A DNA stretch of 64,000 nucleotides. Origin: Mesorhizobium sophorae. Lineage in GTDB: Bacteria; Pseudomonadota; Alphaproteobacteria; Rhizobiales; Rhizobiaceae. The stretch's first letter is position 1, and every line of letters starts with the position of its first letter. This document shows, in pieces, positions 17,701 to 34,472 of the stretch. The DNA lies in assembly GCF_002270415.1 (NCBI RefSeq), contig NZ_NNRI01000015.1:124001-188000 (forward strand), written 5' to 3'. The notes below the pieces were generated by a model. It saw only the letters and a program-made list of their open reading frames with translations. It had not been told where the DNA came from and ran no database searches. The translations under genes and the position numbers were made by a program.

Positions 17701-20700
17701 GCTGAAATCGTTCCTCTATTCGGGCACGGCCGATCAGACGATCGAGAGCCTGAACTACTATTCGCTCGGTTCGCTGCCGGGCCTGGCGGAAAACGGCATC
17801 ACGCTGCAGGACAATTTCAACTATGCGCTGATCTTCGATCTCGATCTCGGCTCGATGGGCGGGCTGGTCGGTTCGCTTTCGGCCTTCAAATTCAGCGTCC
17901 TCATCGGCTGGCTTAGCCCCGAGGACGGCGGTGGGCTGGCCTTCGGCATCCAGCTTCCGCAAGTCGACGGCAAGCTGGAAATCAAGATCGAGGGCGTGCT
18001 GACCATCTCGATCGAACAGTTCAATCTCGAATACGCTACCGATGCCGATCCCAAGATGCTGGTGCTCGGCATGCACAATTGCTTCATCGAGATACTGGGC
18101 CAGCGCCTGCCGCCGGACGGGACGATCAGCATCGGCCTGTTCGCGCCGACCGAAGGCGCCGACCAGATTGGCTGGATCGGTGCTTACAATTTGGGCAAGG
18201 ATGGCGGCGGTGGTGGCGGCGACGATGCGCAGAAACTGCTGGCGGCGCCTGTGCCCGCCAAGGTGGGCGCTGTCAGCGATGTCTTCGAGCTCGTCTATCT
18301 CGGCGTCGGCCAGCGGGTCGGCCCGGACCCGACCAAGCCGCCCGCCAATTTCGATGCTTTCCTGAAGTTCATGCAGGGCGACTTCTGGGACGCCCTCAAG
18401 AACAAGAAATTTGCCGATATCTACCATCCCGAAGGCAAGTGGATCATCGTCACCGACTTCACGCTGCTGAAAGTGCTCGAGGTCGGCTTCGTCTTCTACG
18501 ACGTGACGCCGTTCTACGCGCTACTGCTCAAGCTGACCGGCGGTGCCGGCAAGGGTGCGGAATTCGAGGTCGTCTACACCAAGATCTCCGACACGATCGG
18601 CAAATTCGCCGCCGTCTTCAGCCTGCCCGACAGCCTGCGCACCTTCCAGGTTGGCGCAGCCTCGCTGACGCTGCCGACACTGAGCGTCGACGTCTACACG
18701 AATGGCGACTGGAAGGTCGACCTCGGTTTCCCCGACGGCGACAACTGGAGCGTCTGCTTCCAGGTGCAGGCGCAGGCCGGGCCTATTCCGGTGACCGGAT
18801 CGGGCGGCTTCTACATAGCCAGCCTGAGCTCGGCTACCGACCCCGACGTGTTCAAGGGCACCTACCAGAGCATCCTGGCGTTCGGCTTTGCCGCGCGGCT
18901 GGGCGTCGGCAAGGACTTCACCGCCGGGCCGCTGAAGGCGGGGGTGAGCGTCACCTTCTTCGGCATCATCCAGGGTGCGGCCGGCTATCTCACCAGCGGT
19001 GGCGGAGACCTCGCCAAAAAGCCGGACGCGCTGTCGCTGCAAGGCCAGTTCGGCATCATCGGCGAGCTCTACGGCTCGCTCGACTTCGTCATCATCAAGG
19101 CCAGCGTCAACGTCCGCCTCGAGGCCAGCATCGGCATCATCCTGGCGCTGGAACCACCCAGTGTGCCGGGCGGCGGTGGCGGCTCGATCCTGCTCTACAT
19201 CGAGGCGAGCGTCAGCGTCAGCGTCACGGTGGAGATCAACCTCTTCCTCTTCTCCATTTCCATCAGCTTTAGCTTCAATGCCTCGTTCCGCTTCGAATGG
19301 CAGCTTGCCGGTTCGTCGCAACAGGCCCAGATCGAAACGTTCGCGCGACTGAAGCAGCGGCTTCTTGCGGGTGCAGCGGCGAATGTCGGGCTTTGCCCCA
19401 ACCTGCCGAAGGACCTACCTATCCTGTTCCTGCCGGAACTGACCGTGGTGTTCCCCGATGCGACCAGCAAGGGCACGCCGTGGGTCGTGACCTCGCTCGG
19501 CATACAGTATGACGACAACCCATCGCACAACCCGACCTATGCCGACTTCAAGCCGTTCGAGGCGGTGACGACGCAGCTCGCCACCTTCGCACTCATGCAC
19601 GCACTGAACCTGCCGGCCTACAACTCCGTGGTGTTGCTTGAATTCGATTCCAGCAGCGGCACGCCCGGCTTGAAGGACATCGACAGCGAGCCGGACGCGC
19701 TCACTGCCTGGATCGACTATCCGACCTTGCTTAGCCAGCTCGCCAATTTCTCCGCCACGCTTGCCGCACCGACCGGCAAAGCCAAGGCTTGCGTGTTCCC
19801 GATGCCGCCGTTCCTCAACATGGCGACCACCGGACGCACCGACGGCAATGGCAACGCACAGGATCTGTCCTACCAGTTCCTGGCGCAGAACCTCGTCTCG
19901 CAGACCTACCTGCAAGCGGTCGACACCTATTTCAACCAGCTGTTCGTCAACCAGACCTCGAACCCGACCTCGGTCAACGACAGCGACGGCACCACGCCGT
20001 TGTCGCAGGAGATATTCCTCGATTATTTCAAAGGCTTGATCCGTGGCGCGGTGCACGAGCTGCTGGTGACGATGCAGGATGCGGGGCTGACCTCGTCACC
20101 GCTCGACAAGCTGTTCATGGCAGCGGTGGCCGCACCGACACCCGGCGCACAAACACGCTTCCAGGGTCTCGCCGGTCAGATGTCGAGCGCATTGCGTGGC
20201 GGCGTGCGCCTGCCTTACACCGCCGGTCTCACCGTGCCGGGCGAGGCGGTGTCGACCAGCACGAACCCGCTGTTCGCGCTTCTGTGGCAGGAATTTCCCG
20301 CCGGCGGCTTCGCCAAGAACAACAGCTACAGCATCACGCTGAGCAATCCCGACAAGACGCAGGACTGGCTTGCCGTCAACGCCTCGTTCTCGCTCACCCA
20401 AGACGTCCTCAGCCCCTATCTCGCCTTCACCGAAGCGTCGATAACGGCGCCAAGCAGCCCGACACCAATCGCGCTCAGTTCGACCGGGCCGCAATCCTTT
20501 GCGCTGGAGAACGCCATCGCCTGGACGCCGCCAAGCGCGACGGCGCTCAGCCTGCGGCCATTCGCGTCAAGCCTGGAGAAATTGCAGGCAAATGAAGGAA
20601 CGGCTGCTGTCCCCGTCCTGGTGAAATCCCGCCAGGCGCAAGGGGCCTATCTGCCGGACGGCACGCCGCTGCCCGCCGGCGACATCACTTTCGCCACCAG

Positions 20701-23700
20701 CATCACGCTGACGGTCAAGCAGATTCCGGGCGCCACGCAAGGCAGCGTGCTTGCCGACGTCTACGCACTGTCCGGCGCCAGCCAGTCGGACGAGGCGCTG
20801 CTCGGCCGGATCCTCGACGATCTCAGGGGCGGTGACCGGCCGGTCGACGCAATCCAGATCCTGTTCCAGACGGCCGCCGGTGCGCCCGGCCTCGTCTCGG
20901 CAGTGGTCGATCCAAATGCCGTCTTCGCGCTGCGCACCAACACCACGACGGTGTCGCAGCCGCCGCAAGGGCTGATGGCCTTCGCGCTCGGTCTGCCGGC
21001 GGGTGTGTCCGTCGGCTCCAGCACCGACATCACCGCGGATGGCGGCTACGGTTTCCTGCAGATCATCCAGCAGGCGACGGTCACCAACGCGCAGGGTTAC
21101 TACCTGCGCTTTGTCGACAAGACCGGCAACGCACTGCCAACGCCGCTGTTCGTCAAGGGCGTCGCGCAGGTGACGATGCTGGTGACCTACAAGGCCGGCA
21201 GCGGAACCAACCAGAGCGGCTCGCCGCTCGCCATCCAGCCCTATTACAACGCGGTCGTGCTTGCCGGCACGCAGAGCGGCCTCGTCTACTATGCTGAGAC
21301 CGCAGACCCGGCCCTGGAGGCCCGCTACGTCAAGGTCGCGGCCGGTACCTTCGGTGTCGAGTTGACGCGCTCCGAAAGCGTCATGCAGCTGAAGACGCCT
21401 GCCGCCCTGGTCAAGACCGGGCAGCTTGGCGCGGCGAACTCCCATTCGCGCGGCCGCGTCATTGAGGCGCTGCGCGCATCCGGCATCGCCGACGATACCG
21501 AACTGCACGCAGCACTGGTCGCGGCGGGTGACGCAAAAGCGTCGCTCAACTCGCTCTACAGTCTCGTCACTTACCAAATACAGGCGACGACAGGCTTCAC
21601 GCTCAGCAATTTGTCGGCGCCGATCCAGCCGCAAAAGCCCGACCAGTCCGGCACCACCGGCACGTACCGGGTGTTCGCGCCGCTGTACAACGTCGCCACC
21701 GCCAATGCCGGCTCCGCCACGCCCGACCGCTACGCCTCGATCAACGACAAGTTCACGCTGGACTTCTTCGTCAACGACGCCTTCGGCAACCAACTGCCGA
21801 CCCCGGCCAGCTACAGCGATACCAACCTCTATTTCGATCCGATCGTGCCGGTCGACCAATGGCCGGGGATCCTGCCGACCTATGGCTTCAACGGCTCGAC
21901 GCCTAACACGATCGAGATCGTCCTGACGCCGAGCCAGGCGGCCTTCAGCAGCATGTCGGCGGACCAGAAGGCGGCAGCTCTGGCCAATTTCCGCACCATA
22001 GAGGACCAGATCAGCGGCCCAGGCGTCTCGTTCTATGTCGAGACCAGTCTTGCCCTGCAAGCGGATGGCAGCAGCCTTGTCAATTTCCCGGTTGGTGCAG
22101 CAGACACAAGCAAGGTGACCGGCATGGTTGCCGACCTCGTCAACTGGCTGGCCGGGCTCAGCACCAACTTCCCCGGCGCGGTGACCATCTCGATGCCGGT
22201 CAGCGGCCCCGGCGCCCTGCCGCCGCTGTTCGAGATCGTCGTGCTGTTCGGCATCACCCGCGATGCCAATTTGATCTCGCCCTATCTGAAGGACCAGTTC
22301 GGCACGATCATGGTGCCGTCGGCGCAGAACGTCGCGACCGGATTTGTTCCGGCGACCGGCGGTGCCAGCAACATGTCGCAATTCGCCGCCGCTTTCGTCG
22401 GCGCCTTCCCGGCGCAGAAGCTCGCCATCGGCATGAACGGGGCCGATGCGTCGCCACAGCAGAAACTGTCGAGCACGGCCCAATCCAGCACGGCACTGGC
22501 GCGCAAGCGGCTCAAGTCATTGAAGCTTGCCCATGACGGCTCCGGCGGGGCACGCGCCGGCTCGCAATCGCTGTGGGCGGCCGCGGTATCGCTGCTCGAC
22601 ATCTCGATCGGTGCCGCCGGGGCCGGACCGCGCTTCCTGTCGCCCAAGCCGCTCGACAATGTGCTGAACAGCGCCAGTGTTTCGATGCCGCAGCTGTCGT
22701 CCAAGCTGCCGGCGCTGCCGGCGCAACAGCTGTTCATCGACACCGACCTCGATCAGCTCAACCGCATCTTCTTCCAGGCGGTCGACGAGGTGCTGTCACC
22801 GGCCTCGGCGGCCAAGGCCTTCGAGGTCGCCCCCGACGCCTACGACGCGATGGCGCTCGGCCGCGAGGCGCTGGCGCAGAAATACGCGCAATACGAAGTG
22901 GACTGGCTGTTTGGCCCGCAATCGCCGTTCACCGGCACGACCGCGGCACTTGCCATCGCGAAGGATGTGTTCGAGCAGCAGATGCGCGCGGCGTTGATGA
23001 CGGCCTATTCCGTCGACACCATCGTCCAATACGACGTGACCTGGAACCAGTCGGTCTCGGCTGCCGCCGATGGCAATATCGAGCTCTTCGGCCAGATCGA
23101 AGCCGTACTCGCCGGAGACTACAGCTGGAGCGGTCTCAGCCTGTCGGCGACGACAAACAATCCGCACGGCCTGACCGACGGCAGCCGGGTGCTGATGATA
23201 TTCCAGGCCAGTTCGGGGCAATTGCCGGCGAATGGCGTCTACGGCGTCACCGTCACCGGGGACACCACCTTCACGATCGCCACCGCCGCCAGCGGTTCAG
23301 GCGCCGGCACCTTCTCCGCCACGCGCCAGAATGCCGGGCTCTCAACCGCCCATGTCGGCATCAGCAGCACGGGGGCGAGCCCCCTCACCTTCCTCTACGG
23401 CGATCCCGACGCGGCCGCTGCCGCGGTGGTGCCATTCGATCTGCGTTTCGCCATCACAAACCTGCAGTTCTTCCTGGCGCCGGCGGGCGCACCCGGCGAA
23501 GCGCGTCCATCGATCTGGCTGCAGCTCGTCGATCCCTATCCAAAGGGCGTGCCGCATGTCGGACCTGCCGGCGCCTTGACCAAAATCCCGGTGGTGTATC
23601 GCCAATACCCAACACCGCCGACGCTGGTCAGCCAGACCTGGTCGGGCTACACGCCAACGTCGGGTTCGGGCAATCCAATCGCCGACGGCGCCGACTGGAG

Positions 23701-24976
23701 CTACCTCTATACCTATCAGGCGTTCCTCGTCGCGCAGGACCAGATCAACACCGCCGTCACCTACAACACCAACCTCAGCGCGGCGCCGGACAACCCGCCG
23801 AACTCCACCAACCCTGCCCCCAGCGCAGGCCCGCCCTACGACCTGTTCACGGCATTGGCGCGCACCTCGGCCGTCTACGGTGCCATCAACCCGGTGCTCC
23901 GCAACCCGGCCGATCCAGCCTGGGCCGATGCGGTGGCCGCCTTCGCCACCGCCATTGGCGAGGTGACGGCGAACAAGGACTGGAATCCGAGCCTGGACAT
24001 GGCCCTCGGTCAGGGTCTGGTCAGCGTCACCGACAGCTACGTCGTCACCGACACGCTGCAGCCGGACGGGACGACGCGGCAGATCGAGTTGCAGTGGCCG
24101 GCCGCGCAAGGTGAATCGAGCTTCTCCAATGTCGCGCTGACCGTCACCGCGCTCGACCCGTCGACGCTGACGCCGTACCCGAACCAGCATCCGGTCCAGC
24201 CGTCACCACCAGACGGCCTGCTGTTCGAGGTCGACAACGCCGCGCCCGGCAATTTCGGCGTGGCGCACACGATCGAGGTCGATGCACTCAACGTGCTGGC
24301 GGCCGAGAATGCGCTCGCCTCGGTGCAGATCGAGCGCAACCTGATCACGCTTGAAGCCTCGAACAACACCGCGTGGCAGGTGGTGCCCGAATTCGTCTAC
24401 ATGACGCCGCAGGTCAGGCCGAGCCAGCCGGTCACGCCGTTCATCGACAATGCGACGCCGATCGATGTGGCGACGCTGCCCGGCCAGGGTTCAGGTGCCG
24501 CCTGTCCGACATCGCCGTCAAGCCTTTGCCAGCGCATCTACACGATCATGGCCGACCTTTTGGCGGACCCGGTGCACGAACAATCGCTGCTTGCGGCGCA
24601 TGCGGCCGCCAACGTGACCAGCGGAACCACAAGGCGGGTCAAGGTCGCCTGCTCCTACCAGTTCCCGTTCCCCGCCGTTGCCGGCGGCGCGTTCGACAGC
24701 GCCTCGATCAGTCCGCTTGTTCCGATCGTGCTGGCGCGGTCCTTCGAGATCGACGGGCAACAGCCGGCGGAGCTCGGCGATTTCGCCGCGCTTTTCGCGG
24801 CGGCGATCGCCGGCTGGGCCTCCAAAAACAGCATCGTCTTTGGCGCCAACGCAATGCCGGCAGGCGCGAGGCTGGTCTTCGACATCACGCTTTACGCAGC
24901 ACTCAGCGGCGTCAATACGCCGGTGCTGCGCTTCAGCAACCTGCAACTGAAACTGACGGACATCGACGCGAGCTGA
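14750..24976 (+). CDS. Giant beta-rich protein of unknown function (about 3408 aa)
   Basis: One uninterrupted frame of 10.2 kb. The ATG at 14750 has GGGAGG 5 nt upstream; a GTG two codons earlier overlaps that site. There is no signal peptide at the start. The composition is high in Ala, Ser, Thr, Gly, Asn and Asp with little Cys, like large beta-structured surface or structural proteins. Residues about 1020-1100 hold regular amphipathic strands. Residues about 1400-1520 hold Gly-rich and strictly alternating strands (SVSVSVTVEINLFLFSISIS), suggesting a barrel or sheet. Near residue 2805 a NPHGLTDGSRVLM motif resembles HGL-type beta domains of phage-tail-like proteins. I recognise no enzyme motif. 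It heads a run of same-strand genes with three paralogous proteins and three oxidases. It could be a substrate, scaffold or secreted effector. Confidence 0.75.
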   Translation: MIAFKRDASGLYLADPLAGARVAFVFQDKSRADPTFDLTAQSWVDPGQLGYIAFFVPSATRDWNAFEIGIRKAFADSPGTQIGWFPEPLSIAPILVSVTGQGTSSPTVGESFSLAFRQSVTFQVQPDLFTLSTTVLFDDASNSLQIANSQPPAALLLTATPPAGATVTFQSAAPFASLALSGPLAGTASVAFELATTDLVQFEAGMMYFNPPTGGGLVGALNYPVFRGVGGSATPFGFNVTLDVLGPLDATRSFFQFTDPLLGSTFVTADGKPFALSTVNTGDISTASRLVFAGRPQQSPSEQRYYYLTPAGQFGLALDAGANLAAGASSETVQMLCGVTGTEFVTVTIGSAPDKLEFVPAQPAYRIAPAQDSPTSPAFLDATATTSWAQLIVQDGSYISQPERAPLYNQRTNTATMLAGAEPASGLTVYVLDAFKVASWSAKAASTPAIPLVPYAGLDFSTDPNLNAAAYLDMESRALNPRRASGFIPAPKQGATVNAAAAGPTTLAMTPQGMLAELAGTPLAWTGLQMATSAAGILEFEAMGPSICKAVQQNQIFTVVSENPANPDPLGSGQALFDFSGDKLEIGDWTFDLSPGKLAAPDGTPPIFMMKFYPGETIEALVADTRLWSQADIFNKTFTAAATQAYLQKLITEAKAAVFPNGGTQPDTTSLYWNFYQTVTDPTFNGILAVNCNMQLDELPTAVRAVLGGMKDPGIAGFRVHHVGIAINNTDPSQAVPTLAQSATFALVDYEKAASKSAAAPDSNIDIDIDYGFEVEYLRALFTNSELRSFACEVNLTINNLFKTGVNLDAALSPAANAGDDANVIAIMGSYQAHGTSGDDKSSGQGVYSFVAQGDFVFNFTDENGKSNNKYLRQITLTKLQFSFDDETAATPPKADTTHISAHFAIWGDIEFNEFQVLDLFAFEKLAFSNLGIDVGFDLTIPDKGQPSTSTPSLSFSPGDLRLDLGATEKRSGADSLLDLIPFKLKSFLYSGTADQTIESLNYYSLGSLPGLAENGITLQDNFNYALIFDLDLGSMGGLVGSLSAFKFSVLIGWLSPEDGGGLAFGIQLPQVDGKLEIKIEGVLTISIEQFNLEYATDADPKMLVLGMHNCFIEILGQRLPPDGTISIGLFAPTEGADQIGWIGAYNLGKDGGGGGGDDAQKLLAAPVPAKVGAVSDVFELVYLGVGQRVGPDPTKPPANFDAFLKFMQGDFWDALKNKKFADIYHPEGKWIIVTDFTLLKVLEVGFVFYDVTPFYALLLKLTGGAGKGAEFEVVYTKISDTIGKFAAVFSLPDSLRTFQVGAASLTLPTLSVDVYTNGDWKVDLGFPDGDNWSVCFQVQAQAGPIPVTGSGGFYIASLSSATDPDVFKGTYQSILAFGFAARLGVGKDFTAGPLKAGVSVTFFGIIQGAAGYLTSGGGDLAKKPDALSLQGQFGIIGELYGSLDFVIIKASVNVRLEASIGIILALEPPSVPGGGGGSILLYIEASVSVSVTVEINLFLFSISISFSFNASFRFEWQLAGSSQQAQIETFARLKQRLLAGAAANVGLCPNLPKDLPILFLPELTVVFPDATSKGTPWVVTSLGIQYDDNPSHNPTYADFKPFEAVTTQLATFALMHALNLPAYNSVVLLEFDSSSGTPGLKDIDSEPDALTAWIDYPTLLSQLANFSATLAAPTGKAKACVFPMPPFLNMATTGRTDGNGNAQDLSYQFLAQNLVSQTYLQAVDTYFNQLFVNQTSNPTSVNDSDGTTPLSQEIFLDYFKGLIRGAVHELLVTMQDAGLTSSPLDKLFMAAVAAPTPGAQTRFQGLAGQMSSALRGGVRLPYTAGLTVPGEAVSTSTNPLFALLWQEFPAGGFAKNNSYSITLSNPDKTQDWLAVNASFSLTQDVLSPYLAFTEASITAPSSPTPIALSSTGPQSFALENAIAWTPPSATALSLRPFASSLEKLQANEGTAAVPVLVKSRQAQGAYLPDGTPLPAGDITFATSITLTVKQIPGATQGSVLADVYALSGASQSDEALLGRILDDLRGGDRPVDAIQILFQTAAGAPGLVSAVVDPNAVFALRTNTTTVSQPPQGLMAFALGLPAGVSVGSSTDITADGGYGFLQIIQQATVTNAQGYYLRFVDKTGNALPTPLFVKGVAQVTMLVTYKAGSGTNQSGSPLAIQPYYNAVVLAGTQSGLVYYAETADPALEARYVKVAAGTFGVELTRSESVMQLKTPAALVKTGQLGAANSHSRGRVIEALRASGIADDTELHAALVAAGDAKASLNSLYSLVTYQIQATTGFTLSNLSAPIQPQKPDQSGTTGTYRVFAPLYNVATANAGSATPDRYASINDKFTLDFFVNDAFGNQLPTPASYSDTNLYFDPIVPVDQWPGILPTYGFNGSTPNTIEIVLTPSQAAFSSMSADQKAAALANFRTIEDQISGPGVSFYVETSLALQADGSSLVNFPVGAADTSKVTGMVADLVNWLAGLSTNFPGAVTISMPVSGPGALPPLFEIVVLFGITRDANLISPYLKDQFGTIMVPSAQNVATGFVPATGGASNMSQFAAAFVGAFPAQKLAIGMNGADASPQQKLSSTAQSSTALARKRLKSLKLAHDGSGGARAGSQSLWAAAVSLLDISIGAAGAGPRFLSPKPLDNVLNSASVSMPQLSSKLPALPAQQLFIDTDLDQLNRIFFQAVDEVLSPASAAKAFEVAPDAYDAMALGREALAQKYAQYEVDWLFGPQSPFTGTTAALAIAKDVFEQQMRAALMTAYSVDTIVQYDVTWNQSVSAAADGNIELFGQIEAVLAGDYSWSGLSLSATTNNPHGLTDGSRVLMIFQASSGQLPANGVYGVTVTGDTTFTIATAASGSGAGTFSATRQNAGLSTAHVGISSTGASPLTFLYGDPDAAAAAVVPFDLRFAITNLQFFLAPAGAPGEARPSIWLQLVDPYPKGVPHVGPAGALTKIPVVYRQYPTPPTLVSQTWSGYTPTSGSGNPIADGADWSYLYTYQAFLVAQDQINTAVTYNTNLSAAPDNPPNSTNPAPSAGPPYDLFTALARTSAVYGAINPVLRNPADPAWADAVAAFATAIGEVTANKDWNPSLDMALGQGLVSVTDSYVVTDTLQPDGTTRQIELQWPAAQGESSFSNVALTVTALDPSTLTPYPNQHPVQPSPPDGLLFEVDNAAPGNFGVAHTIEVDALNVLAAENALASVQIERNLITLEASNNTAWQVVPEFVYMTPQVRPSQPVTPFIDNATPIDVATLPGQGSGAACPTSPSSLCQRIYTIMADLLADPVHEQSLLAAHAAANVTSGTTRRVKVACSYQFPFPAVAGGAFDSASISPLVPIVLARSFEIDGQQPAELGDFAALFAAAIAGWASKNSIVFGANAMPAGARLVFDITLYAALSGVNTPVLRFSNLQLKLTDIDAS

Positions 24977-25197
24977 CCGCCTCAAGGCGGGCATCGCGGC
25001 GGCGTCACGCAGACACGAGTGGAAGGAGGAGCCGTTTCGAAACCAGACCATCGGGCCCCAAGCCGGCAACAGGTTTTGGAAACATCCGATGTTGAAACAA
25101 AACGATCGAGCGACGGCACGCTTCGACTTCAAGTCCGCCGCTCTGGAATTCGCCTGCAAGAACGACAGTCCGAAACCCGCAAACCGCGAGGGAAATT

Positions 25198-25908
25198 ATG
25201 GCAACGACCGCAAAATTCGACATTCTCGGTGCAAACGCATCTAACCCAAACTGGGATGGCTCGCCGCTGACGCTGGCCTACCGCGACAGCGCGGCGATGC
25301 CGCAGACGACCAACGGATCGATGATCTTCGCCTATCAGAACACCGCCTCCCTCAACAATGCCGGCAAGCTGGCGCTGACTTCAGGCAGTTCGACACCGTC
25401 GTTCCTGACAGCTCCGGCGTTGCTTTCCCAGCCGAACATCCTCGTCAACAACTGGCAGGCAAACAATCTCTCCGTCACCAATGTCAGCGTCGCGACCGCG
25501 ACGCCGATCTGGATCGAGGCCTTCGGTCCTGGACTGCCCGGCCAGAAGCCGGTTGCGCTAGCCATCAACACCGCGCTGACGCTCAAGCCAGGCGGCATCG
25601 CCCAGGGAACGTCGACCCCGAACTGGATGCAGCTGACCCTGGGGACGAATACCGGCCAGTTGATCATCGTCGCCGTTGTCGGCGGTCCGCAGGATGCGTC
25701 AGGCAACAACGCCTACGCTGTCGCGCTGAACTCGCCGTCCGGCAACACCGGTCCGGGCACCGGCACGGCAGCGCCACAAGGCTATTACGCGACGACGGGC
25801 GGCAACAACTACTCCTTCGAATTCAACTGGGGTTCCTCGGTTGTCTACGTGGCGAACATGTCGCCTTCGACGGCTTCCTCGCTGACGGCGGAACTGCTGT
25901 CTCTGTGA
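25198..25908 (+). CDS. Tandem paralogue 1 of an unknown beta protein family
   Basis: A 236-aa protein of unknown function, first of three adjacent relatives. Shared blocks are the N-terminal NWDGSPLTLAYRDSAAMPQT, then TNGSMIFAYQN, NAGKLALTSGSS, the central NNWQANNLSVTNVS, TPIWIEAFGPGLPG, VVGGPQDASGNNAYAVALNS and a C-terminal YSFEFNWGSSVVYVANMSP. No signal peptide, no Cys, few charged residues, and rich in Asn, Ser, Thr and Gly, which suggests a compact beta fold. The ATG has GAGGGA 4 nt upstream. It follows the giant gene by 221 bp on the same strand. A role as partner or substrate of the giant protein or the oxidases is inference. Confidence 0.75.
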   Translation: MATTAKFDILGANASNPNWDGSPLTLAYRDSAAMPQTTNGSMIFAYQNTASLNNAGKLALTSGSSTPSFLTAPALLSQPNILVNNWQANNLSVTNVSVATATPIWIEAFGPGLPGQKPVALAINTALTLKPGGIAQGTSTPNWMQLTLGTNTGQLIIVAVVGGPQDASGNNAYAVALNSPSGNTGPGTGTAAPQGYYATTGGNNYSFEFNWGSSVVYVANMSPSTASSLTAELLSL

Positions 25909-25980
25909 TCGAAGCGCGGGAGCCGGAAGCGCAAGCCGCCGGCTCCCGTGACAACGCCGGTGCAAAGAGGACATCCTGAC

Positions 25981-26676
25981 ATGCACGACTTCATCGCAGC
26001 GGGCACGGTCAACGCGACCTGGAACGGCATGCCGCAGACACTGGCGGTCCGTGGCAGCGTGACCATGCCGCAGACGCCCAACGGCTCCCTCATCGTCGGC
26101 TACTTCAACCAGTCACAGCAGAACAACGAGGGCAGGCTTACCGTCACCTCTGGCAGCAGCGCGCCAACGAACGTTCGGGTCCCGGCTCTGGCACGGATGA
26201 TCAGCGTGCTGACGGCGAACTGGCAGGCCAACAACCTGACCCTCACCAACACCAGCCTCAATGCCGCGACCCCCATCTTCGTGCAGGCCTTCGGCCCCGG
26301 CATTCCCGGCATGCAGCCTGGCCAGCTCGTGAGCGGCACACCTGTCCAGCTGGCGATGCGCCAGGCGGTGCAAGGGATAACGACACCGAACTGGATGCAG
26401 CTTGAATTCAGCTCGAGCACCGGCAATCAGCAGGTGGTCGCGGTGGTCGGTGGACCGCCTGACCAGTCGGGCAACAATGCCTATGTGATTGCGCTCAACG
26501 CCCCGAGCGGCGACACCGGACCGCCGACCGGGAACACTCCGCCGGACGGGTTTTACGCCACGGCGGCCGGCAACAGATACACGATGTCCTTCAGTTGGGG
26601 GGCGGCGATAGTCTACGTGGTCAATCTCTCGCCGCAGACCGCAACGCCGGTGACGACCCTGCTGCAATCCTTGTAG
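25981..26676 (+). CDS. Tandem paralogue 2 of the same unknown family
   Basis: A 231-aa protein sharing the block order of its neighbours: ATWNGMPQTLAVRGSVTMPQ, TPNGSLIVGYFNQ, TANWQANNLTLTNTS, TPIFVQAFGPGIPG, VVGGPPDQSGNNAYVIALNA and FSWGAAIVYVVNLSP. It is the most divergent of the three. The ATG at 25981 is chosen because homology starts there and GAGG lies about 9 nt upstream; an upstream ATG at 25948 would add an unrelated tail. The gap to paralogue 1 is 72 bp, consistent with one operon. Function unknown. Confidence 0.75.
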   Translation: MHDFIAAGTVNATWNGMPQTLAVRGSVTMPQTPNGSLIVGYFNQSQQNNEGRLTVTSGSSAPTNVRVPALARMISVLTANWQANNLTLTNTSLNAATPIFVQAFGPGIPGMQPGQLVSGTPVQLAMRQAVQGITTPNWMQLEFSSSTGNQQVVAVVGGPPDQSGNNAYVIALNAPSGDTGPPTGNTPPDGFYATAAGNRYTMSFSWGAAIVYVVNLSPQTATPVTTLLQSL

Positions 26677-26731
26677 ACCTCCGCACCGGTCCGCCTTTCC
26701 GCCATCCTGGCTGCTCTCTGAGACGGAAGCC

Positions 26732-27469
26732 ATGCCACCTTCGGACTTCAACATTTTGGGTCAATCCCTGGCGACGGACAATTGGGATGGCTCTCCGGTG
26801 GAGCTTGCCGTGCGCGACAGCGTGGCGATGCCGCAGACCCCCAACGGGTCGATGATCCTGGCTTTCCAGAATGCTTCCGAGATGAACAATGCCGGCAAGC
26901 TGGCGCTGACCAGCGGCAGCAGCCAGCCGCAATTCCTGCTGGCGCCGGGGCTGGCCTTGCAGCCCACCATCCTGATCAACAATTGGCAGGCCAACAATCT
27001 GAACATCACCAATGTCAGCGTGAACACCAACACGCCAATCTGGATCGCGGCCTATGGGCCGGGCATGGGCGGCGCGGCGCCAACGCCTTTGCCGACCACC
27101 GGCGACGCCGTCCCGGTCGCTGTCGACACGACGCTGAAGGCGGTCACGCTGCCGCAGTACATGCAGCTGGGCTTCCAGGCGAATTCGGCCGGTCTTTGCC
27201 TGTTCGCTTTCATCGGCGGCCCGCAGGACACCAAAGGCAACAATGCCTATGCGATCGCGCTGAATTCGCAGTACGGCGATACCGGGCCCGGCCACCCGAC
27301 ACCGGCCCCGGCCGGTTACTACGCGACGGTCGGCGGCAACAGCTACAGCTTCGAGTTCAACTGGGGAACCTCGGTGCTGTTCGTGGCCTATTTTGGCAGC
27401 GGCTCCGTCCTGAGCGGCGTCCCCAAGGTGGTGACTGCCGCCCCCACGGTGACATTGCAGACGCTGTGA
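26732..27469 (+). CDS. Tandem paralogue 3 of the same unknown family
   Basis: A 245-aa protein closest to paralogue 1 (NWDGSPVELAVRDSVAMPQT, NGSMILAFQN, NNAGKLALTSGSS, NNWQANNLNITNVS, TPIWIAAYGPGMGG, YSFEFNWGTSVLFVAYFG). It has a short insertion (around residues 115-130) and a Val/Thr-rich C-terminal extension of about ten residues relative to the others. The ATG follows GACGGAAG, 55 bp after paralogue 2. No signal peptide. Three tandem, diverged copies next to one giant gene suggest hetero-oligomeric or dosage roles; this is inference. Confidence 0.75.
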   Translation: MPPSDFNILGQSLATDNWDGSPVELAVRDSVAMPQTPNGSMILAFQNASEMNNAGKLALTSGSSQPQFLLAPGLALQPTILINNWQANNLNITNVSVNTNTPIWIAAYGPGMGGAAPTPLPTTGDAVPVAVDTTLKAVTLPQYMQLGFQANSAGLCLFAFIGGPQDTKGNNAYAIALNSQYGDTGPGHPTPAPAGYYATVGGNSYSFEFNWGTSVLFVAYFGSGSVLSGVPKVVTAAPTVTLQTL

Positions 27470-27694
27470 TCCTTGCGGTCATGGTCCGCCGTCGATCGGC
27501 ACCTAAACTGATTAAAAATAGAGCAATATCGAAATGAACTGACCTTTAGTCGTATAAGCAAGTTCTTAAGTGCGCCATAACAGTTTTGTTGGAAGTAAAT
27601 TTTAGATTTTATGGCTTTGCAAGCTAGACAGATTTTCGGATTGGGCGCACTATGCTTACGGATCGAAGTCTACAGCCAGTATGAGGGAGGCCCC
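27470..27694. other. AT-rich gap inside the cluster
   Basis: 225 bases separate paralogue 3 from the oxidase genes. The stretch 27510-27625 is clearly AT-richer than the flanking coding DNA (for example GATTAAAAATAGAGCAATAT and AAGTAAATTTTAGATTTTAT), so a second promoter for the oxidase genes is plausible. Confidence 0.35.
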
Positions 27695-29800
27695 ATGTCG
27701 CTTGGTGGATCGATGGCGCGTGCGCGATTTCTCTTGGGTTTTTTCGGCAGCAGCCTGGTACCAATCGCGGTGCTGCCCGCGGCGGCCGAGATCCTCAATC
27801 CACCGGTGCTGCAGGATGACCGCGCGCCGATCGCCAAGCCTGCCCTGACGGAGCTCGCACCTGCTGCACCACTGCCCGGAAATACGCTGCCGGTGCGTGG
27901 CGACCGCCTGCTCAATCTCAAGATCGAGTACATCGACAACCAGATCTACAACCCGTCCACGGGCGGCTACGACAAGGTCCATTTGCGCGGCTACACCGGC
28001 AAGGGCGTCGATCCCAAGGCTCCTTATGTCTCGCCGACGATCGAGGCCGTTCCGGGCGACACGGTGCGCGTCACCCTCGACAATCAGTTGCCGGCAGGGC
28101 CGCAGCCCGGCGACCCCGGCTGCATGCCCGGTGGCCAGATGCCCGATATCCCCCACTGCTTCAACGGCACCAATCTGCATACTCACGGGCTGTGGGTAAG
28201 CCCGTCGGGCAACAGCGACAACGTGCTGCTGTCGATCAACCCGCAAACGCAGTTCACCTACGAATACAACATCCCGTCGGACCATCCTTCCGGCACGTTC
28301 TGGTATCACACCCATCGCCACGGCTCGACGGCGCTGCAGGTGTCGAGCGGCATGGCCGGTGCGCTGATCATCCGCGGCAACCGCTTCCCGACCCCGACAA
28401 CCCATGGCGACATCGATACGCTGATCCCGACCTCGGCGATCCCCGAGCGGGTGCTGGTGATGCAGCAGATCCAGTATGCCTGCCGCGCGCCGGCGGCGAA
28501 GCCTGGAGAGCTCGGCCCGATCAAGCAGGACATCAACGGCCACTATTTCTGTGATCCGGGCGATGTCGGCGGCATCGAGGGCTATGACCAGTTCGGGCCG
28601 GGCACATGGCCGGCATCGGGGCGCTATACCTCGCTCAATGGCAGGGTGTTCAATCCGAACGACCCCTTGAAGGCGACGCAGGGCCAGATCGAGCGCTGGC
28701 GGATGGTCCATGCCGGCGTCCGCGACACGATCAGCCTACAATTTTTCAAGGTGCTTGACGGCAAGCTCAAGCCCGGAGTGAAAACGCTGCTCAATGCCGA
28801 CACCAACGCGGCGTTCATCAAGGATACGTGCAGCACCACACCCGTGCCCTATACGCTGGTCGCGGCCGACGGGCTGACGATGGCGGCGGCGCAGCCGACC
28901 AAGCTTGCAACCTTCCAGCCCGGCTATCGCTTTGACGCGCTGGTCGTCTTTCCAGACGCCGGACGCTACTGCGTGATCGACTCCTCGGCACCAAAATCGG
29001 GTGTGGTCAACGGGCTCGATGTCGGACCGCAACTGCTCGCACTGGTCGACGTCGCGCCAGGGACGCCGGTCGATAACGTGGAAACCTACGTCAATCGCAA
29101 GCTGGTTGCCCTGGCCGAGGCCAACATGCCCGCGAATGTCAAAGCGACGGTGGTGGCCGATCTCAAGGCCGGAACGAAATTCACCAGCTTCACGCCGCAT
29201 CCCGACGTCACCGACGACGAGGTGAAGGGCAACGGCACACAGGAGCTGACCTTCTTCATCGACACGACCGGGCCGAACACCAAGTTCGAAGTCGGCAACA
29301 CGCTCAACACAGCCGACGTCAAGCCCTACGACCCGACCCGCATCGACCGCTCGCTGCCGCTGGGCAAGGCGCAGGAATGGACGCTGCAGTCACACTTCGT
29401 CAGCCATCCGTTCCACATCCATGTCAATCCGTTCCAGATCGTCTCGATCATCGATCCCAACGGCAAGGACGTCAGCGCGCCGGGCGCGATAGACGATGCC
29501 GGCGGTGAGCCCTACGATCCGCAATATGCCGGGCTCAAGGGCGTGTGGAAGGATACGCTGTGGATCAAGAGCCTGATCCCGCAATCCTTGCCGGCCGGCT
29601 TCTCGGGCATCTACACGATCAAGGTCCGTACCCGTTACGAGCGCTACATTGGCGAGTACGTGCTGCACTGCCACATCCTCGATCATGAGGACCAGGGCAT
29701 GATGCAGAACGTTGCCGTGGTGCTGCCTGATCAGGTGGGCGACATCACCCAGAGCGGCGCGATGCAGATGCAGATGGATGGCCACGATGGCCACAAATAA
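27695..29800 (+). CDS. Secreted multicopper oxidase (laccase-like)
   Basis: A 701-aa copper oxidase that would oxidise phenols, amines or metals while reducing O2 to water. All four copper-binding motifs are present: HTHG at residues 162-165, WYHTHRHG from 203, HPFHIHV from 571, and HCHILDHEDQGMM from 658, which holds the type-1 Cys and the axial Met. The N-terminus has a Sec-like signal peptide (FLLGFFGSSLVPIAVLPAAA, probable cleavage near residue 31), so it is exported. The C-terminus is Met/His-rich (MQMQMDGHDGHK), possibly a copper-loading tail. The ATG at 27695 has GGGAGG 4 nt upstream; an ATG at 27713 is an alternative. It is the first oxidase of the run. Confidence 0.9.
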   Translation: MSLGGSMARARFLLGFFGSSLVPIAVLPAAAEILNPPVLQDDRAPIAKPALTELAPAAPLPGNTLPVRGDRLLNLKIEYIDNQIYNPSTGGYDKVHLRGYTGKGVDPKAPYVSPTIEAVPGDTVRVTLDNQLPAGPQPGDPGCMPGGQMPDIPHCFNGTNLHTHGLWVSPSGNSDNVLLSINPQTQFTYEYNIPSDHPSGTFWYHTHRHGSTALQVSSGMAGALIIRGNRFPTPTTHGDIDTLIPTSAIPERVLVMQQIQYACRAPAAKPGELGPIKQDINGHYFCDPGDVGGIEGYDQFGPGTWPASGRYTSLNGRVFNPNDPLKATQGQIERWRMVHAGVRDTISLQFFKVLDGKLKPGVKTLLNADTNAAFIKDTCSTTPVPYTLVAADGLTMAAAQPTKLATFQPGYRFDALVVFPDAGRYCVIDSSAPKSGVVNGLDVGPQLLALVDVAPGTPVDNVETYVNRKLVALAEANMPANVKATVVADLKAGTKFTSFTPHPDVTDDEVKGNGTQELTFFIDTTGPNTKFEVGNTLNTADVKPYDPTRIDRSLPLGKAQEWTLQSHFVSHPFHIHVNPFQIVSIIDPNGKDVSAPGAIDDAGGEPYDPQYAGLKGVWKDTLWIKSLIPQSLPAGFSGIYTIKVRTRYERYIGEYVLHCHILDHEDQGMMQNVAVVLPDQVGDITQSGAMQMQMDGHDGHK

Positions 29801-29810
29801 GGCGCAGCCA

Positions 29811-31784
29811 ATGCCCGCCGCGCCGTTCACCTGGAGCGACGTGGAGGCGATCCTCGCCACGGCCGGCGGCACCGGGGGACCCGGCAGCCTGACGGGACTG
29901 ACGCTGCCAGAGTTCCTGGCACTGCAGCTGCACGGGATGCCACTGATCGCGCCGCTCTCGACCACCTGCTGCGGCACCAGCGATGCCAAGGGGCGCGGCG
30001 CGCGCTCGGCGCTGATCCGGGGCTTGCGCGGACTGCCGCCGTTCGACGGCAAGCAGTTCCCTCGCCTGCCCTGGGGCGGGACGGCGGTCGCCGATGAAGA
30101 CATAGACCGGATCGAGACGTGGATCGAAGAGGGCTGCCCCGGCGCGTTGATCGGTTCGATTGCACTCGCCAGCGAGGTCAGCGTGGCGACCGAGGCGCGC
30201 GTCGAGGTCAAGGGGATTGCCGGCCCGGTCTTCAGCGAGGCGTCCGATTCGGCGGCATGGCGCTATGCCAAGGGCGAGCTGCGGCAGCGCATGGACGTCG
30301 ATGTGCTGGACGACGCGCAAAAGGAGCGGCTGCGCTATGCCTTTCGTGAGCTCTACAAGCTCAATAAATGGGTCGGCGACAAGCGCAGCTACAACAATCT
30401 GGCCTTGATCCACCAGAACCATTGTCAGCATGGCTGGGAACGTTTCCTGCCGTGGCATCGCGTGTATCTTTATGAATTCGAACAGGCGTTGCAGGATTTC
30501 TGCCCCGACGTGACCATGCCGTGGTGGGATTTCCCGGCTGAGCGCTACAAGCCTGAGGATCCGGCCAACGGCGCTATCCTCCCCGATGCGTTCAAAGGTT
30601 TCCTCACCGAGGCCTCAGTGCGCTTCCTGCGCGATCATGGTTTCCCGGCCAAGATCGGCACGCTGGTGGGCAAGCTGTGGGCCAATCCGACGCAGGCCTA
30701 TGACGCGGTCAGCGGCGCCTGCGGCAAGGACTATGTGGAAGGGGAAAACCGCAAACGGCTGATCGACGCGCTGCTCGAGGTCAATTCGCTATGGTATCCG
30801 CTGCGCTATTCAAGCCAGTTCGGCAAAGGCACGATCAACACCGTCATCCACTATCATTATCCGGCACAGGAGGACATCGACGAGATCCTCAGCCTGCGCA
30901 CCTTCCGCGACTTCGGCGGTGGCAGCCTCTATGTCGACAGCTTCGGCTTCCTGGACCAGAATCCGCACAACACGATGCACATCTGGACCGGGGGCATGAA
31001 CCCTGCGTTCAAGACCAGCGCGCCCGCCGATCGCAACAGCGCGGTACGCGTTGCCGGACGCAAGTTCCACCAGCGCGACGACCTCTACTCCGAGCCGCAG
31101 TTCGGCGACATGTTCTCGAACCTGACCGCGTCCTACGACCCGATCTTCTGGCCGGTGCACGCCAATATCGACCGGCTCTGGTGGCGCTGGCAGCAGGACC
31201 ATCCCGACGGCCTGCCCGCCGATCTCGATTCCGCGCTGACGCCGTGGAGCTACGCGGTGCGCGATACGCTCGATATGAACCGCTTCGGCTATGAATATGT
31301 TCGTGGCGGATGCCTCATGCCGGTCGGGCTGACCAGTCCGGTCGGACGCTTCGTTTCGGCGCCGATCGCGGTGCCTGAAGCGACCAAGAGCTTCCGCTCG
31401 GCGGAAGTGCGGCTGCACCGCGTGCCGCAGCTGCCGCGCTCCTGCTTCATCCGCGTGTTTCTCAACACGCCGGATGCCGACGCCAGCACGCCGCTCAACC
31501 TGGCGGGCTATGCCGGCTATGCGGCAATCTTCGGCCACGGCGAATGTTTTGGCGGGCCCGGGCATTGCGAAATTCCACCAGCGGAGAACCGCAAGTTCGA
31601 TCTACGCGAGCGCAGCATGAACACGCCGCGCAACCACCGTATCGATGTGACGCGCGCGGCACGCCGGCTGATCGCGGCCGGCGCCACCAGCCTTACAGTA
31701 AGCCTGGTCGTGATCGGCGCCTCCTATGAGGAGGACCGCGAGTTGCTGCGGCTCGACGGGGTCTCGCTCAACTTTCTCGATTGA
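29811..31784 (+). CDS. Tyrosinase-family copper enzyme with extra N-terminal region
   Basis: About 657 aa. A type-3 dicopper enzyme that would hydroxylate monophenols and oxidise o-diphenols to quinones. The CuA site is in HQNHCQHGWERFLPWHRVYL (His201 to His216). The CuB site is in HNTMH (His386 and His390) and DPIFWPVHANIDRLW (His450). An N-terminal part of about 130 residues precedes the domain, ending PWGGTAVADEDIDRIETW and IEEGCPG; it resembles cytochrome-c-like segments but lacks CxxCH. A C-terminal beta domain follows. No signal peptide. The start is uncertain: ATG 29811 has AAGG 8 nt upstream, while ATGs at 29778 and 29787 would overlap the oxidase gene. Confidence 0.88.
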   Translation: MPAAPFTWSDVEAILATAGGTGGPGSLTGLTLPEFLALQLHGMPLIAPLSTTCCGTSDAKGRGARSALIRGLRGLPPFDGKQFPRLPWGGTAVADEDIDRIETWIEEGCPGALIGSIALASEVSVATEARVEVKGIAGPVFSEASDSAAWRYAKGELRQRMDVDVLDDAQKERLRYAFRELYKLNKWVGDKRSYNNLALIHQNHCQHGWERFLPWHRVYLYEFEQALQDFCPDVTMPWWDFPAERYKPEDPANGAILPDAFKGFLTEASVRFLRDHGFPAKIGTLVGKLWANPTQAYDAVSGACGKDYVEGENRKRLIDALLEVNSLWYPLRYSSQFGKGTINTVIHYHYPAQEDIDEILSLRTFRDFGGGSLYVDSFGFLDQNPHNTMHIWTGGMNPAFKTSAPADRNSAVRVAGRKFHQRDDLYSEPQFGDMFSNLTASYDPIFWPVHANIDRLWWRWQQDHPDGLPADLDSALTPWSYAVRDTLDMNRFGYEYVRGGCLMPVGLTSPVGRFVSAPIAVPEATKSFRSAEVRLHRVPQLPRSCFIRVFLNTPDADASTPLNLAGYAGYAAIFGHGECFGGPGHCEIPPAENRKFDLRERSMNTPRNHRIDVTRAARRLIAAGATSLTVSLVVIGASYEEDRELLRLDGVSLNFLD

Positions 31785-31826
31785 AAACACAAGACACGGC
31801 CGGCGCAGGCACCGAGGGGAAATCAA

Positions 31827-34472
31827 ATGGCCGACCCAACAGTCTATCGCATCCACCCGGCCGTCGGCATCGCGCGGCTCGGCGACAGCCCCGAGGGTTT
31901 CTGCATCTCGCCGGAAAAGCCGGCGCAGTTGCCGATCGAGTGCGACGCCAACGGCAATGCCGCGAAAGGCGATGCGCCGATCAAACACTTCAAGGACAGC
32001 AAGGGCCGCATCAAGCGCCAGGCCGCGCGTTTCCAGATCTTCGTCTATGACGCGGCCAACCCACAGGGCAGTCCGCTGAAGATCGGCGACCATGTCGAAG
32101 GCGGCGGCAATCGCGGCAAGCTGGTCGACATCCAGTGGCGCGTTCAGCTCGCCAACAAGAAGGCGGCATGGTTCACCTTCGACGGGCTGCGCGGCGAGGC
32201 CGGCTATGCCGCCGACGCGCCGCTGCGCAACGCCGGCATCACCGATCCGGTCGAACGGCAGAATCTGATCATCGACGCCGGCCCGCAAGCCGTCGACTGC
32301 ACCGCGCGGCGCAAGGCGAGCTTCGGGCGGGACACCAACCCGGCCTATGCCGTCACCTTCCCGCCGACCGGGATGGTGCCAAACGACATCGACACGCTGG
32401 GCGAAATGATGACCGACGACAGCGGGCGGCTGCTGCTGCTTGGCGGACACGGCAACAGCGGCTCGTTCCTCAGCGGGTTTGGCCATCCGCGCATCAAGAC
32501 CTACGCCAACAGCGACGGCTGGTTCGACGACATCTCCGACGGGCCGGTGATGGCGCGGCTGGTGATGATGGAGGAGCGCGTCCAGGCGCTGCGCTACATC
32601 GATGTCGAATATCCTGCCTGGGTGCTGGTCGGGTATCCGCGCTATGCGCCGGAAGTGCTCGACATGATCACGCTGGAGGACGTGGTCGAGGACATGTCTA
32701 TCCGGGAATTTGCCTATCGCACCGACATGTACGGCACCGCGGGAACGTTTGACGCGCCGCAGAAGATCGATCCGACCGACACGGCGGCCTTGCTGCACTG
32801 GCAGGCAGGACCGGTTGAGTGGAATCCGGCCTATCGCCCCTGGTTCTGGCGCGACATCTGGCCGATCATTTTCCGCGCCGACGAATTCTCCTATTTCACC
32901 AACATCCTCCAGCAATCGAACTTCCCGCACAACCAGTCGAGCCGGGGCACGTTCGATCCCTATCGCCTGTGCATCCCGCCACGCATCGCACCGCGTGCGC
33001 TGGCGCAAAAGGAAGGCCGCGCGAAGGACGACCATGTCGGCGGACGGCTGCTCGAGGCAGCGGTGGAACCGAGCCTGATGCTACTCGATGCAACGCAGGC
33101 GCCGGGCGCGGCTAGAGATGCCGTGGTTGGCGATGCCGCCGCCACGCTGAGGGCGGCAGCGGCGACGTTCACCGCCGCGGTCTGCCCGCCCGACGATGGC
33201 GAGGCGCCGCGCAGCTATGCCGCGCGCTGGCAAAAAACCTTCGCCGACAACGACACCGTGGCCGAGCCGGCCTATGCCGAGGCGCGCAGCGCCTTCGATG
33301 CTGAGATCACCGGCGTGATCGAGCGCATCGCCGCGGCCGCCGCGCCGCCGCGCAAACGGATGCTGACGCTCGCCCGGGCCTCGTCGCGGCAGGAGCCCGG
33401 CGAACCAGACCGGACCACCGATCCGGACGAGCCGATCGAGGCTGCGCTCCGCCGGTTGGCGTTCGAATACCGTTCCGGCCAGTTGCTCGAGCGCGCGCTC
33501 GCTGCCGCGGCCAAGGATGCCACGACCGATCCCGGCCGTTCCGCGCGGCAGTATCTGTTCGACCTGCTGCGCAAGCCAGGCGAGGAGAACCTGTTCCGGC
33601 TCGACGCCAATCCGGCGACGCGGACCTATCATCTGCCGCTGATGCCGCTGCTTGCCGGCGACAATCCGATCACCAACAAGACGGTGAGCAAGTTCCTGCG
33701 GCTGACCGACACGCAACTGTTCCTGCTGCGGCAATGGGCGGCGGGCATCTTCATTGACGAGGTGGATGCAGGCTTCGCCCCCGCGATCGATCCCTGGCAG
33801 CCCTACAAGGACTGGAATGTGCCGGGCGGACGCGGTCTCGACCAGGGTGTGCTGTCGAACGGACTTGGCGGCGCCTTCTGCCCAGGCGGTGAGGTCACGT
33901 GGATCATCCGCAACCCGGCGATCTGGCGCGAGCCCTACCGGATCAAAGCAGACCCGGAATGGTATAGCTTTGCGCTGACCGCGGCGCAGGAGAACGCCAA
34001 CCGATGGGGAGCGGGCGTCAGCGAGGAAGGCTATATCGCCTATGCCTCCGACCCGCTGTCGCAAGGCAGCGACCTCGATGTGGGATTGCAGCCCGGCGAC
34101 CTGACCAAGCTCAGCGGGCTGCCATGGCAGGCGGATTTCAACGAATGCTCCACCCAGACGATCGACGTCACCTACGAGGAATGGAACGTCCTTTATCCCG
34201 ACAGCGTCGGCAACACGCTGATGGAGCGCGAGCGGCGCGTGTGGGAGACCTTATGGTGGCCGGCGCATCGGCCGATGCAGGCCTATTATCCCGTCGGCAA
34301 GGACTTCCAGTTCCGCAACTGGGCGCGCGGCATTCCGCAGACGCTTGCCGGCGACCTCAAGATGGTGACCGAATGGTCGAAGCTCGGCTTCATCGTCCGC
34401 AATCCGGCGGGCGGGCTCGATCAGCCCTCGCCCGGTATCAAATACATCTGCGTCGAAGATTCGGGAGAATGA
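31827..34472 (+). CDS. LodA/GoxA-like CTQ-dependent amino-acid oxidase
   Basis: An 881-aa protein of the LodA/GoxA family, which oxidises the amino group of lysine or glycine to an aldehyde, releasing NH3 and H2O2, with a cysteine tryptophylquinone cofactor made from its own residues. It begins with the family hallmark YRIHPAVGIARLGDSPEGF. The cofactor region is WQADFNEC with Asp770 and Cys774 (the Asp-x3-Cys spacing of LodA), followed by WWPAHRP with Trp810/811. No signal peptide, as is usual for LodA. GAGGGGAAAT precedes the ATG. The interval from Cys to Trp is about 36 residues, shorter than in LodA (65, from memory). Residues about 400-600 are an extra Ala/Arg-rich region. Its maturation partner LodB lies two genes downstream. 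Confidence 0.85.
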   Translation: MADPTVYRIHPAVGIARLGDSPEGFCISPEKPAQLPIECDANGNAAKGDAPIKHFKDSKGRIKRQAARFQIFVYDAANPQGSPLKIGDHVEGGGNRGKLVDIQWRVQLANKKAAWFTFDGLRGEAGYAADAPLRNAGITDPVERQNLIIDAGPQAVDCTARRKASFGRDTNPAYAVTFPPTGMVPNDIDTLGEMMTDDSGRLLLLGGHGNSGSFLSGFGHPRIKTYANSDGWFDDISDGPVMARLVMMEERVQALRYIDVEYPAWVLVGYPRYAPEVLDMITLEDVVEDMSIREFAYRTDMYGTAGTFDAPQKIDPTDTAALLHWQAGPVEWNPAYRPWFWRDIWPIIFRADEFSYFTNILQQSNFPHNQSSRGTFDPYRLCIPPRIAPRALAQKEGRAKDDHVGGRLLEAAVEPSLMLLDATQAPGAARDAVVGDAAATLRAAAATFTAAVCPPDDGEAPRSYAARWQKTFADNDTVAEPAYAEARSAFDAEITGVIERIAAAAAPPRKRMLTLARASSRQEPGEPDRTTDPDEPIEAALRRLAFEYRSGQLLERALAAAAKDATTDPGRSARQYLFDLLRKPGEENLFRLDANPATRTYHLPLMPLLAGDNPITNKTVSKFLRLTDTQLFLLRQWAAGIFIDEVDAGFAPAIDPWQPYKDWNVPGGRGLDQGVLSNGLGGAFCPGGEVTWIIRNPAIWREPYRIKADPEWYSFALTAAQENANRWGAGVSEEGYIAYASDPLSQGSDLDVGLQPGDLTKLSGLPWQADFNECSTQTIDVTYEEWNVLYPDSVGNTLMERERRVWETLWWPAHRPMQAYYPVGKDFQFRNWARGIPQTLAGDLKMVTEWSKLGFIVRNPAGGLDQPSPGIKYICVEDSGE

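Follow-up and report, generated by a model that had tools for sequence, protein, structure and literature searches.

Why does a bacterium keep several copies of a small, charge-poor protein directly beside one giant gene? The question is raised by a 64,000-nucleotide stretch of Mesorhizobium sophorae DNA (assembly GCF_002270415.1, contig NZ_NNRI01000015.1, positions 124,001 to 188,000 of the forward strand; G000:C7:124001-188000), here called the window, which lies within an 8.05-Mb genome. An earlier note, made from the sequence alone, had pointed to three tandem paralogues in this window, here named P1, P2 and P3, and had proposed that they are different subunits of one assembly. At about even confidence, P1-P3 are read here as non-catalytic, charge-poor subunits with a binding or structural role, which occupy different places in an assembly that is built on the giant protein and is probably surface-exposed or released.

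Three tandem paralogues behind a giant gene

The first gene of the module encodes the giant protein (14744..24976, forward strand), an open frame of 3410 amino acids. It is followed on the same strand by P1 (c1; 25198..25908; 236 amino acids), P2 (c2; 25981..26676; 231 amino acids counted from the ATG at 25981) and P3 (c3; 26732..27469; 245 amino acids, including an extended C-terminal tail); the gaps between them are, in that order, 221, 72 and 55 nucleotides. Sequences resembling ribosome-binding sites, judged by eye, precede P1 (GAGGGA, 25188..25193, forward strand) and P2 (AGAGGAC, 25966..25972, forward strand), and the ATG at 25981, which the second of these precedes, is favoured over a GTG at 25948 as the start of P2. 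A scan of 24900-27800 for promoters and terminators, a type of scan that is uninformative in this clade, found none. The share of C-ending codons among two-fold codons is 0.82 in P1 and 0.81 in P2, the top of 21 tabulated open reading frames (ORFs), and an unremarkable 0.71 in P3; this measure is not used as evidence.

The three ORFs are intact and can be aligned end to end, with pairwise identities of 52% (P1-P2), 56-58% (P1-P3) and 47% (P2-P3) and E-values far beyond chance (6e-72 for P1 against P2, 6e-78 for P1 against P3). The alignment bears out three same-strand paralogues with a shared motif order, albeit with variants: P2 has ANWQANNL, TPIFVQAFGPG and YTMSFSWG, and P3 has AYGPG. The earlier note had called the copies strongly diverged, which overstates what is a moderate divergence of 47-58% identity. 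Its remark on low charge holds well, given that Asp, Glu, Lys and Arg together make up 5.1% of P1, 5.2% of P2 and 6.5% of P3, compared with 13.7% of the giant and 15.5-30.2% of the 17 other window ORFs taken as genes; across the 22 family members gathered, the range is 2.5-7.4%. The absence of Cys, also noted earlier, is wrong for P3, which has one, and for the family overall, where 9 of the 22 members (P3 among them) have at least one. As the note had stated, no signal peptide is visible on P1, P2 or P3, judged by eye only.

Conservation of the block as a unit

One genome per species (84,980 in total) was scanned with two short peptide patterns, an approach that distant members may escape. 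Among 97 candidate stretches, six loci were confirmed: two in Mesorhizobium (L004 and L005), one in Pseudolabrys (L006), two in Sphingomonas (L007 and L008) and one in a Thermoanaerobaculia bacterium of the Acidobacteriota (L009). Window P1 is 89-90% identical to its Mesorhizobium counterparts in L004 and L005. Each locus carries three copies, or four in L009, and the giant gene stands directly upstream in all six. A further genome, G476, was found by whole-genome search only and has the same block with the giant. With L004 (the same genome as G391) and L005 (the same as G425) each counted once, the giant is directly upstream on the same strand in 8/8 genomes with an intact family, namely the window, G391, G425, G476 and L006 to L009.

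Whole-genome searches were positive in 5 of 146 Mesorhizobium genomes, four with three copies and one with a fragment. Wider searches gave one positive in 385 genomes of the class, 398 of the phylum, 297 of the L009 phylum and 249 of the L008 family, the single positive being in each case the centre genome itself. The class and phylum samples are draws in which part of the first-look candidates was scored (7/15 and 7/30, respectively, for the M. sophorae genome). Apart from a stub in G522, no stand-alone copy of the family was found in these 146 + 385 + 398 + 297 + 249 genomes, which include overlaps between samples. This stub of the P3 C-terminus (G522:C54; L015 ~1501-1660) lies directly upstream of a multicopper oxidase gene and is apparently the remnant of a natural deletion of the module. 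A pattern named beforehand as one that would refute a shared assembly, namely solitary family genes of known function in other surroundings, was also looked for and was not seen in the genomes sampled. The claim that the copies are retained beside the giant is therefore strongly supported by the linkage in all eight genomes, the lack of stand-alone copies in the sample and the position-specific Pseudolabrys orthologues of P1, P2 and P3.

Evolution and selection

In a tree of the 22 proteins, c1, c2 and c3 each unite Mesorhizobium with Pseudolabrys (supports 97/94, 100/97 and 100/99), and the order of the copies is kept in both genera. These position-specific clades indicate that the copies are not interchangeable. 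The Sphingomonas and Acidobacteriota copies form a separate clade (99/97). Grouping by position across both clades was rejected in an approximately unbiased (AU) test, with p-AU values of 1.1e-5 for c1, 0.0135 for c2 and 1.3e-4 for c3; the groups tested were gene positions, and the test was set after the tree had been seen. It follows that the copies multiplied at least twice, or that gene conversion homogenised them within each clade. The earlier note had called the triplication old, which is right insofar as it predates the split of the Mesorhizobium and Pseudolabrys genes but does not extend to the second clade.

The tree of the giant (6 rows) shows the same two-clade split as the small-protein tree, which suggests that the giant and the small genes move together as one block. 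The Acidobacteriota giant shares 58-61% identity with the giants of Sphingomonas and 52-53% with those of Mesorhizobium and Pseudolabrys, which suggests that the giant has been transferred between phyla, the Acidobacteriota included. Purifying selection acts on P1, P2, P3 and the giant segment, with P3 the freest: ratios of non-synonymous to synonymous substitution rates (dN/dS) between the window and L004/L005 are 0.13-0.15 for P1, 0.22-0.26 for P2, 0.27-0.35 for P3 and 0.09-0.10 for giant residues 690-1570, and the maximum among all pairs listed is 0.41.

These data also bear on the view that unequal crossing-over produced redundant copies whose retention serves dosage alone. Such an origin would account for the tandem layout and for copies having multiplied independently, or undergone gene conversion, in each of the two clades. 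However, redundant copies would not be expected to differ to 47-58% identity within the window, nor to keep their order and copy-specific orthology in Mesorhizobium and Pseudolabrys, and this explanation is considered very unlikely.

Predicted fold of P1

The P1 model, built from 22 sequences, is confident (predicted local distance difference test, pLDDT, 89.0; predicted template modelling score, pTM, 0.84) and describes a helix-free, two-domain beta-sandwich protein of 18 strands. VIA alignment matched residues 20-112 to the nucleoplasmin core 1nlq (Z 8.5, 2.8 A over 90 residues) and residues 109-235 to the collagen-binding domain 1nqd (Z 9.0, 2.7 A over 95 residues). Over its whole length, P1 was matched best by the SIDT1 extracellular domain (Z 9.2, root-mean-square deviation 5.4 A over 165 residues). 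According to the tool, models without a clear match typically reach a best Z of 7-8. Foldseek gave 30 matches in the PDB at E <=0.001 with TM-scores of at most 0.43, and 28 among viral models at the same threshold with TM-scores of at most 0.37, mostly to capsid, tail and other sandwiches. With scores barely over background, the matches are read as tandem beta-sandwiches, a common arrangement, and not as kinship.

The individual likenesses point the same way. P1 shares tandem beta-sandwiches with the extracellular domain of SID-1/SIDT proteins (Foldseek E 3e-6), but identity is 8%, those proteins are eukaryotic and P1-P3 have no transmembrane part; SID-1/SIDT proteins join the sandwich to a transmembrane domain, whereas the P1 model is all beta over its 236 residues and only the extracellular domain was matched. 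The C-terminal half can be compared with the collagen-binding/PPC domain of bacterial collagenases, a beta-sandwich of ~110 residues, but other sandwiches score alike. Here identity is 10%, P1-P3 are not attached to an enzyme and have two domains per protein, and none of the listed Pfam matches of the 22 members (E 0.5) is to this domain. The nucleoplasmin core, at 9% identity to the N-terminal half, ties with several unrelated sandwiches.

When the N and C halves were compared by hhalign, the score was 19.3 (probability 3.3%), which 5 of 300 column-shuffled controls reached, and a weak BLAST sub-alignment of P2 with P3 (E 0.049) likewise brings the C half of one copy onto the N half of the other. 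These observations are no more than suggestive of an old internal duplication behind the two halves of the small proteins.

The 34 invariant columns of the family contain no Asp, Glu, Lys, Arg, His or Cys, and the 23 nearly invariant columns hold D166 as their sole charged residue. An enzymatic role of P1-P3 is unlikely because none of the 34 invariant positions is charged. The conserved residues do include three tryptophans (W19 and W86 invariant, W211 nearly so), which together with the two sandwich domains, the low charge and the many Asn, Thr and Gly residues would suit sugar binding. P1-P3 might thus be lectin-like or adhesive proteins that are secreted along with the giant but stay free of its particle, with copy number reflecting ligand variety; the resemblance of single P1 domains to collagen-binding/PPC and other sandwiches is in keeping with this. 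Free lectins would not be expected to stay linked to the giant in 8/8 genomes or to be conserved by position, and no lectin profile was matched by the family in the Pfam and NCBIfam scans. This explanation is regarded as unlikely.

Searches against known families

No convincing match to the P1-P3 family was found in Pfam (22 members), in NCBIfam and PHROGs (the three window copies) or among PDB sequences (profiles). Stray library matches were read as chance: KPP10_Orf10 (E 0.08), a plant cysteine-rich domain (0.03), a ketoacyl synthase (0.03) and a trypsin inhibitor (1.6). Neither the 72,556 plasmids nor the 50,697 phage records searched contained a match to P1, and none was confirmed in viral contigs. 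The best PHROG match for P1-P3 had an E-value of 0.12, and a place among phage structural proteins is not supported by these searches. A PADLOC scan of the giant and P1 at E 1 was likewise without a match. Among the matches listed in a literature search, no paper on the block was recognised from titles and the openings of abstracts. By elimination, then, the block may be regarded as new, since the libraries searched contained nothing described, whether family or system, that it matched.

The giant protein and its remote relatives

The giant has no Pfam match above cutoff; the only family listed is Imm57 (E 0.014, below the gathering score). NCBIfam, PADLOC and PDB sequences gave no match at E 1. 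No LysM domain was found in it by Pfam, and no signal peptide is visible by eye. DUF6603, considered as a family similar to the giant, was dropped after neither a literature nor a Pfam match was found. Residues 2801-2900 (window 23144-23443) form the least conserved block of 100 residues, at 0.48 compared with 0.60-0.87 elsewhere, and look like an inserted domain; this block reads NPHGLTDGSRV...YGVTVTGDTTFTI, resembling a repeat of phage tail proteins.

The most widely conserved part is a core at residues ~1150-1527 (18191..19324, forward strand), delimited by phmmer domain matches and plasmid tblastn. A tblastn search with the last 2,325 residues retrieved eight plasmid records (Nostoc, two of Azospirillum, Embleya, Mycetohabitans, Paenibacillus, Tistrella and Lysinibacillus), of which seven, all but Lysinibacillus, were inspected. 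The search was restricted to plasmids, and the plasmid location of these relatives is thus no finding. No giant was found in phage records by tblastn, and no viral contig with the core was confirmed. In the remote giants (Nostoc carneum NIES-2107, Azospirillum lipoferum 4B, Azospirillum sp. B510, Mycetohabitans rhizoxinica, Tistrella mobilis, Embleya and Paenibacillus sp. 37) the core is matched with phmmer E-values of ~1e-31 to 1e-63, and in G636, the one positive among 218 other genomes of the phylum, with 8e-53.

The relatives share with the window giant the core, in most cases weaker further stretches, a very large size and, in the members scanned, the lack of any Pfam family above cutoff except LysM; some also have small charge-poor neighbours. 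They differ in that no P1-P3 homologue was detectable in the fetched stretches and the unit is often distributed over more than one gene, as in Paenibacillus, where a 1107-residue product corresponds to the N-terminal part and a 1528-residue product to the core. Existing annotations read 'hypothetical', 'LysM domain-containing' or, in B510, 'Ig-like domain-containing', and the Embleya giant is unannotated. LysM was found in the Embleya and Mycetohabitans proteins scanned, and cluster genes in Tistrella and Paenibacillus are annotated as LysM, but the Nostoc and A. lipoferum giants were scanned without finding it, so LysM does not define the superfamily. The neighbours vary, and include an endonuclease/phosphatase-like protein (below the Pfam cutoff), a laminin-G protein with a sub-cutoff papain match, a Nal1-type protease and, in Mycetohabitans, one small protein of 252 residues with 18.7% charged residues. 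In G636:C15 (L045, L046) the giant frame of 4365 residues is accompanied by a 1236-residue partner, by charge-poor neighbours of 152 and 438 residues and by a 317-residue neighbour that by eye resembles a glycoside hydrolase; no P1-P3 relative was found in the 31 kb fetched there.

The core was also considered as part of a weapon. A fold model of giant residues 690-1570 (7 rows) reached a pLDDT of only 38, and Foldseek with it found nothing at E <=0.001, a result that was not used. This low-confidence model places two long alternating strands (19 and 18 residues, model residues 793-831) next to each other in the core. The block could accordingly be pictured as a weapon of several components that acts by contact or pore formation, or as the body that delivers it, in which the giant inserts by amphipathic beta-hairpins and P1-P3 serve as helpers. 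The patchy spread across phyla and the deletion in one strain are typical of such traits. The model, however, is too poor to carry the idea, no toxin, immunity or defence family matched the giant above cutoff, and no immunity gene was recognised in the block; a weapon is judged quite unlikely.

The downstream oxidase cluster and the module boundary

A cluster of multicopper oxidase, tyrosinase, LodA-like and LodB-like genes (27611..35981, forward strand; Pfam and NCBIfam) begins 141 nucleotides after P3. The 10 of 144 Mesorhizobium genomes with a close orthologue of the multicopper oxidase (at least 81% identity) are also those with one of LodA (at least 88%); the LodA count excludes a 62-residue fragment in G409, and the LodA of G391 and G401 lies in two pieces. 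Four of the ten carry the module, G522 has the stub and five lack the module (G413, G401, G431, G526 and G482), the absence being based on the tally over 146 genomes (25 listed) and on upstream stretches, that of G526 covering 1.5 kb. The oxidase gene behind the G522 stub has no internal stops, and a second copy of the cluster in G425 is likewise without a module upstream. In three of seven upstream stretches, similarity of module-less loci to the window starts at 27494-27511, just past the P3 stop, within a region taken as the leader of the next unit (27494..27610, forward strand). Oxidase orthologues thus occur without the module and the boundary of similarity follows P3, and the module is therefore judged, from sequence comparison, to form a block of its own, distinct from the oxidase cluster and liable to be missing or deleted.

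The proximity of the cluster nevertheless invites the idea that P1-P3 are substrates, cross-linked through conserved tyrosines by tyrosinase, multicopper oxidase and LodA into an insoluble coat. Y173, Y197 and Y205 are indeed nearly invariant in the small family, and all four module-bearing Mesorhizobium genomes carry the cluster. But oxidase tblastn gave no match in the fetched stretches of the four loci outside Mesorhizobium (L006-L009; the remainder of those genomes was not searched), six of the ten oxidase-bearing genomes have no module or only a stub, and the boundary right after P3 marks a separate unit. Coat formation of this kind is accordingly held to be most unlikely.

Several observations were made around the cluster. 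In M. qingshengii (L005 15313-20112), P3 is separated from the multicopper oxidase gene by an ORF of 1599 residues and by further sequence. The LodA matches at G391:C88:99834-102474 and G401:C3:251398-254039 each consist of two overlapping pieces in different frames, and the gene looks broken in both. In the window, the LodB model match to the LodB-like frame (34488-35981) does not begin before residue 135, which points either to an N-terminal extension of the protein or to a true start downstream of the listed TTG. Further downstream, a TadB/TadC-like type II secretion F-domain protein is encoded on the reverse strand (40721-41692), and a Tad pilus locus may lie nearby.

Proposed organisation of the assembly

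Different subunits of one assembly, as the earlier note had proposed, is the most economical reading of the sequence data. The giant and P1-P3 would be made together from one gene block, and the small proteins would dock at different places on the giant or onto each other. The large assembly that results would probably be exposed on the surface or released, and its outward faces could bind a neutral ligand, e.g., a polysaccharide or the surface of another cell. Binding faces that are themselves neutral would be in keeping with such a particle. An assembly needing several small subunits would fit with their separate multiplication or re-homogenisation in two clades.

Several points weigh against this proposal. 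Shared operons can encode proteins that never touch. The fold matches of P1 lie near background and name no ligand, and the model of giant residues 690-1570 is too poor to use. With no signal peptide visible on the giant or on P1-P3, export would need another route. P1-P3 show no homology to any segment of the giant (hhalign profile comparison, all probabilities below 1%), nor to the small neighbours of the remote giants (profile probability 0.3%). Azospirillum sp. B510 (L041 736-2317) does have two tandem small paralogues of 273 and 226 residues (10.6 and 4.0% charged) upstream of its giant relative, but with no kinship detectable by profile, this parallel to P1-P3 may be coincidental.

Implications

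It is possible, though doubtful, that the block represents a class of very large assembly not described so far. In it, a scaffold of 3,400 residues would carry three or four charge-poor double-sandwich subunits in fixed order; the block would have spread horizontally across phyla and would belong to a broader superfamily of giant proteins, some of them with LysM, that exchange their accessory proteins and may form a new surface or contact machine. The block is conserved as a unit across two phyla, and the small size of P1 together with its confident predicted fold offers a cheap experimental entry point. Should the parts indeed belong to one assembly, they would make up a giant bacterial complex of a new type, and sense could then be made of the giant superfamily in cyanobacteria, actinobacteria, Bacillota and proteobacteria.

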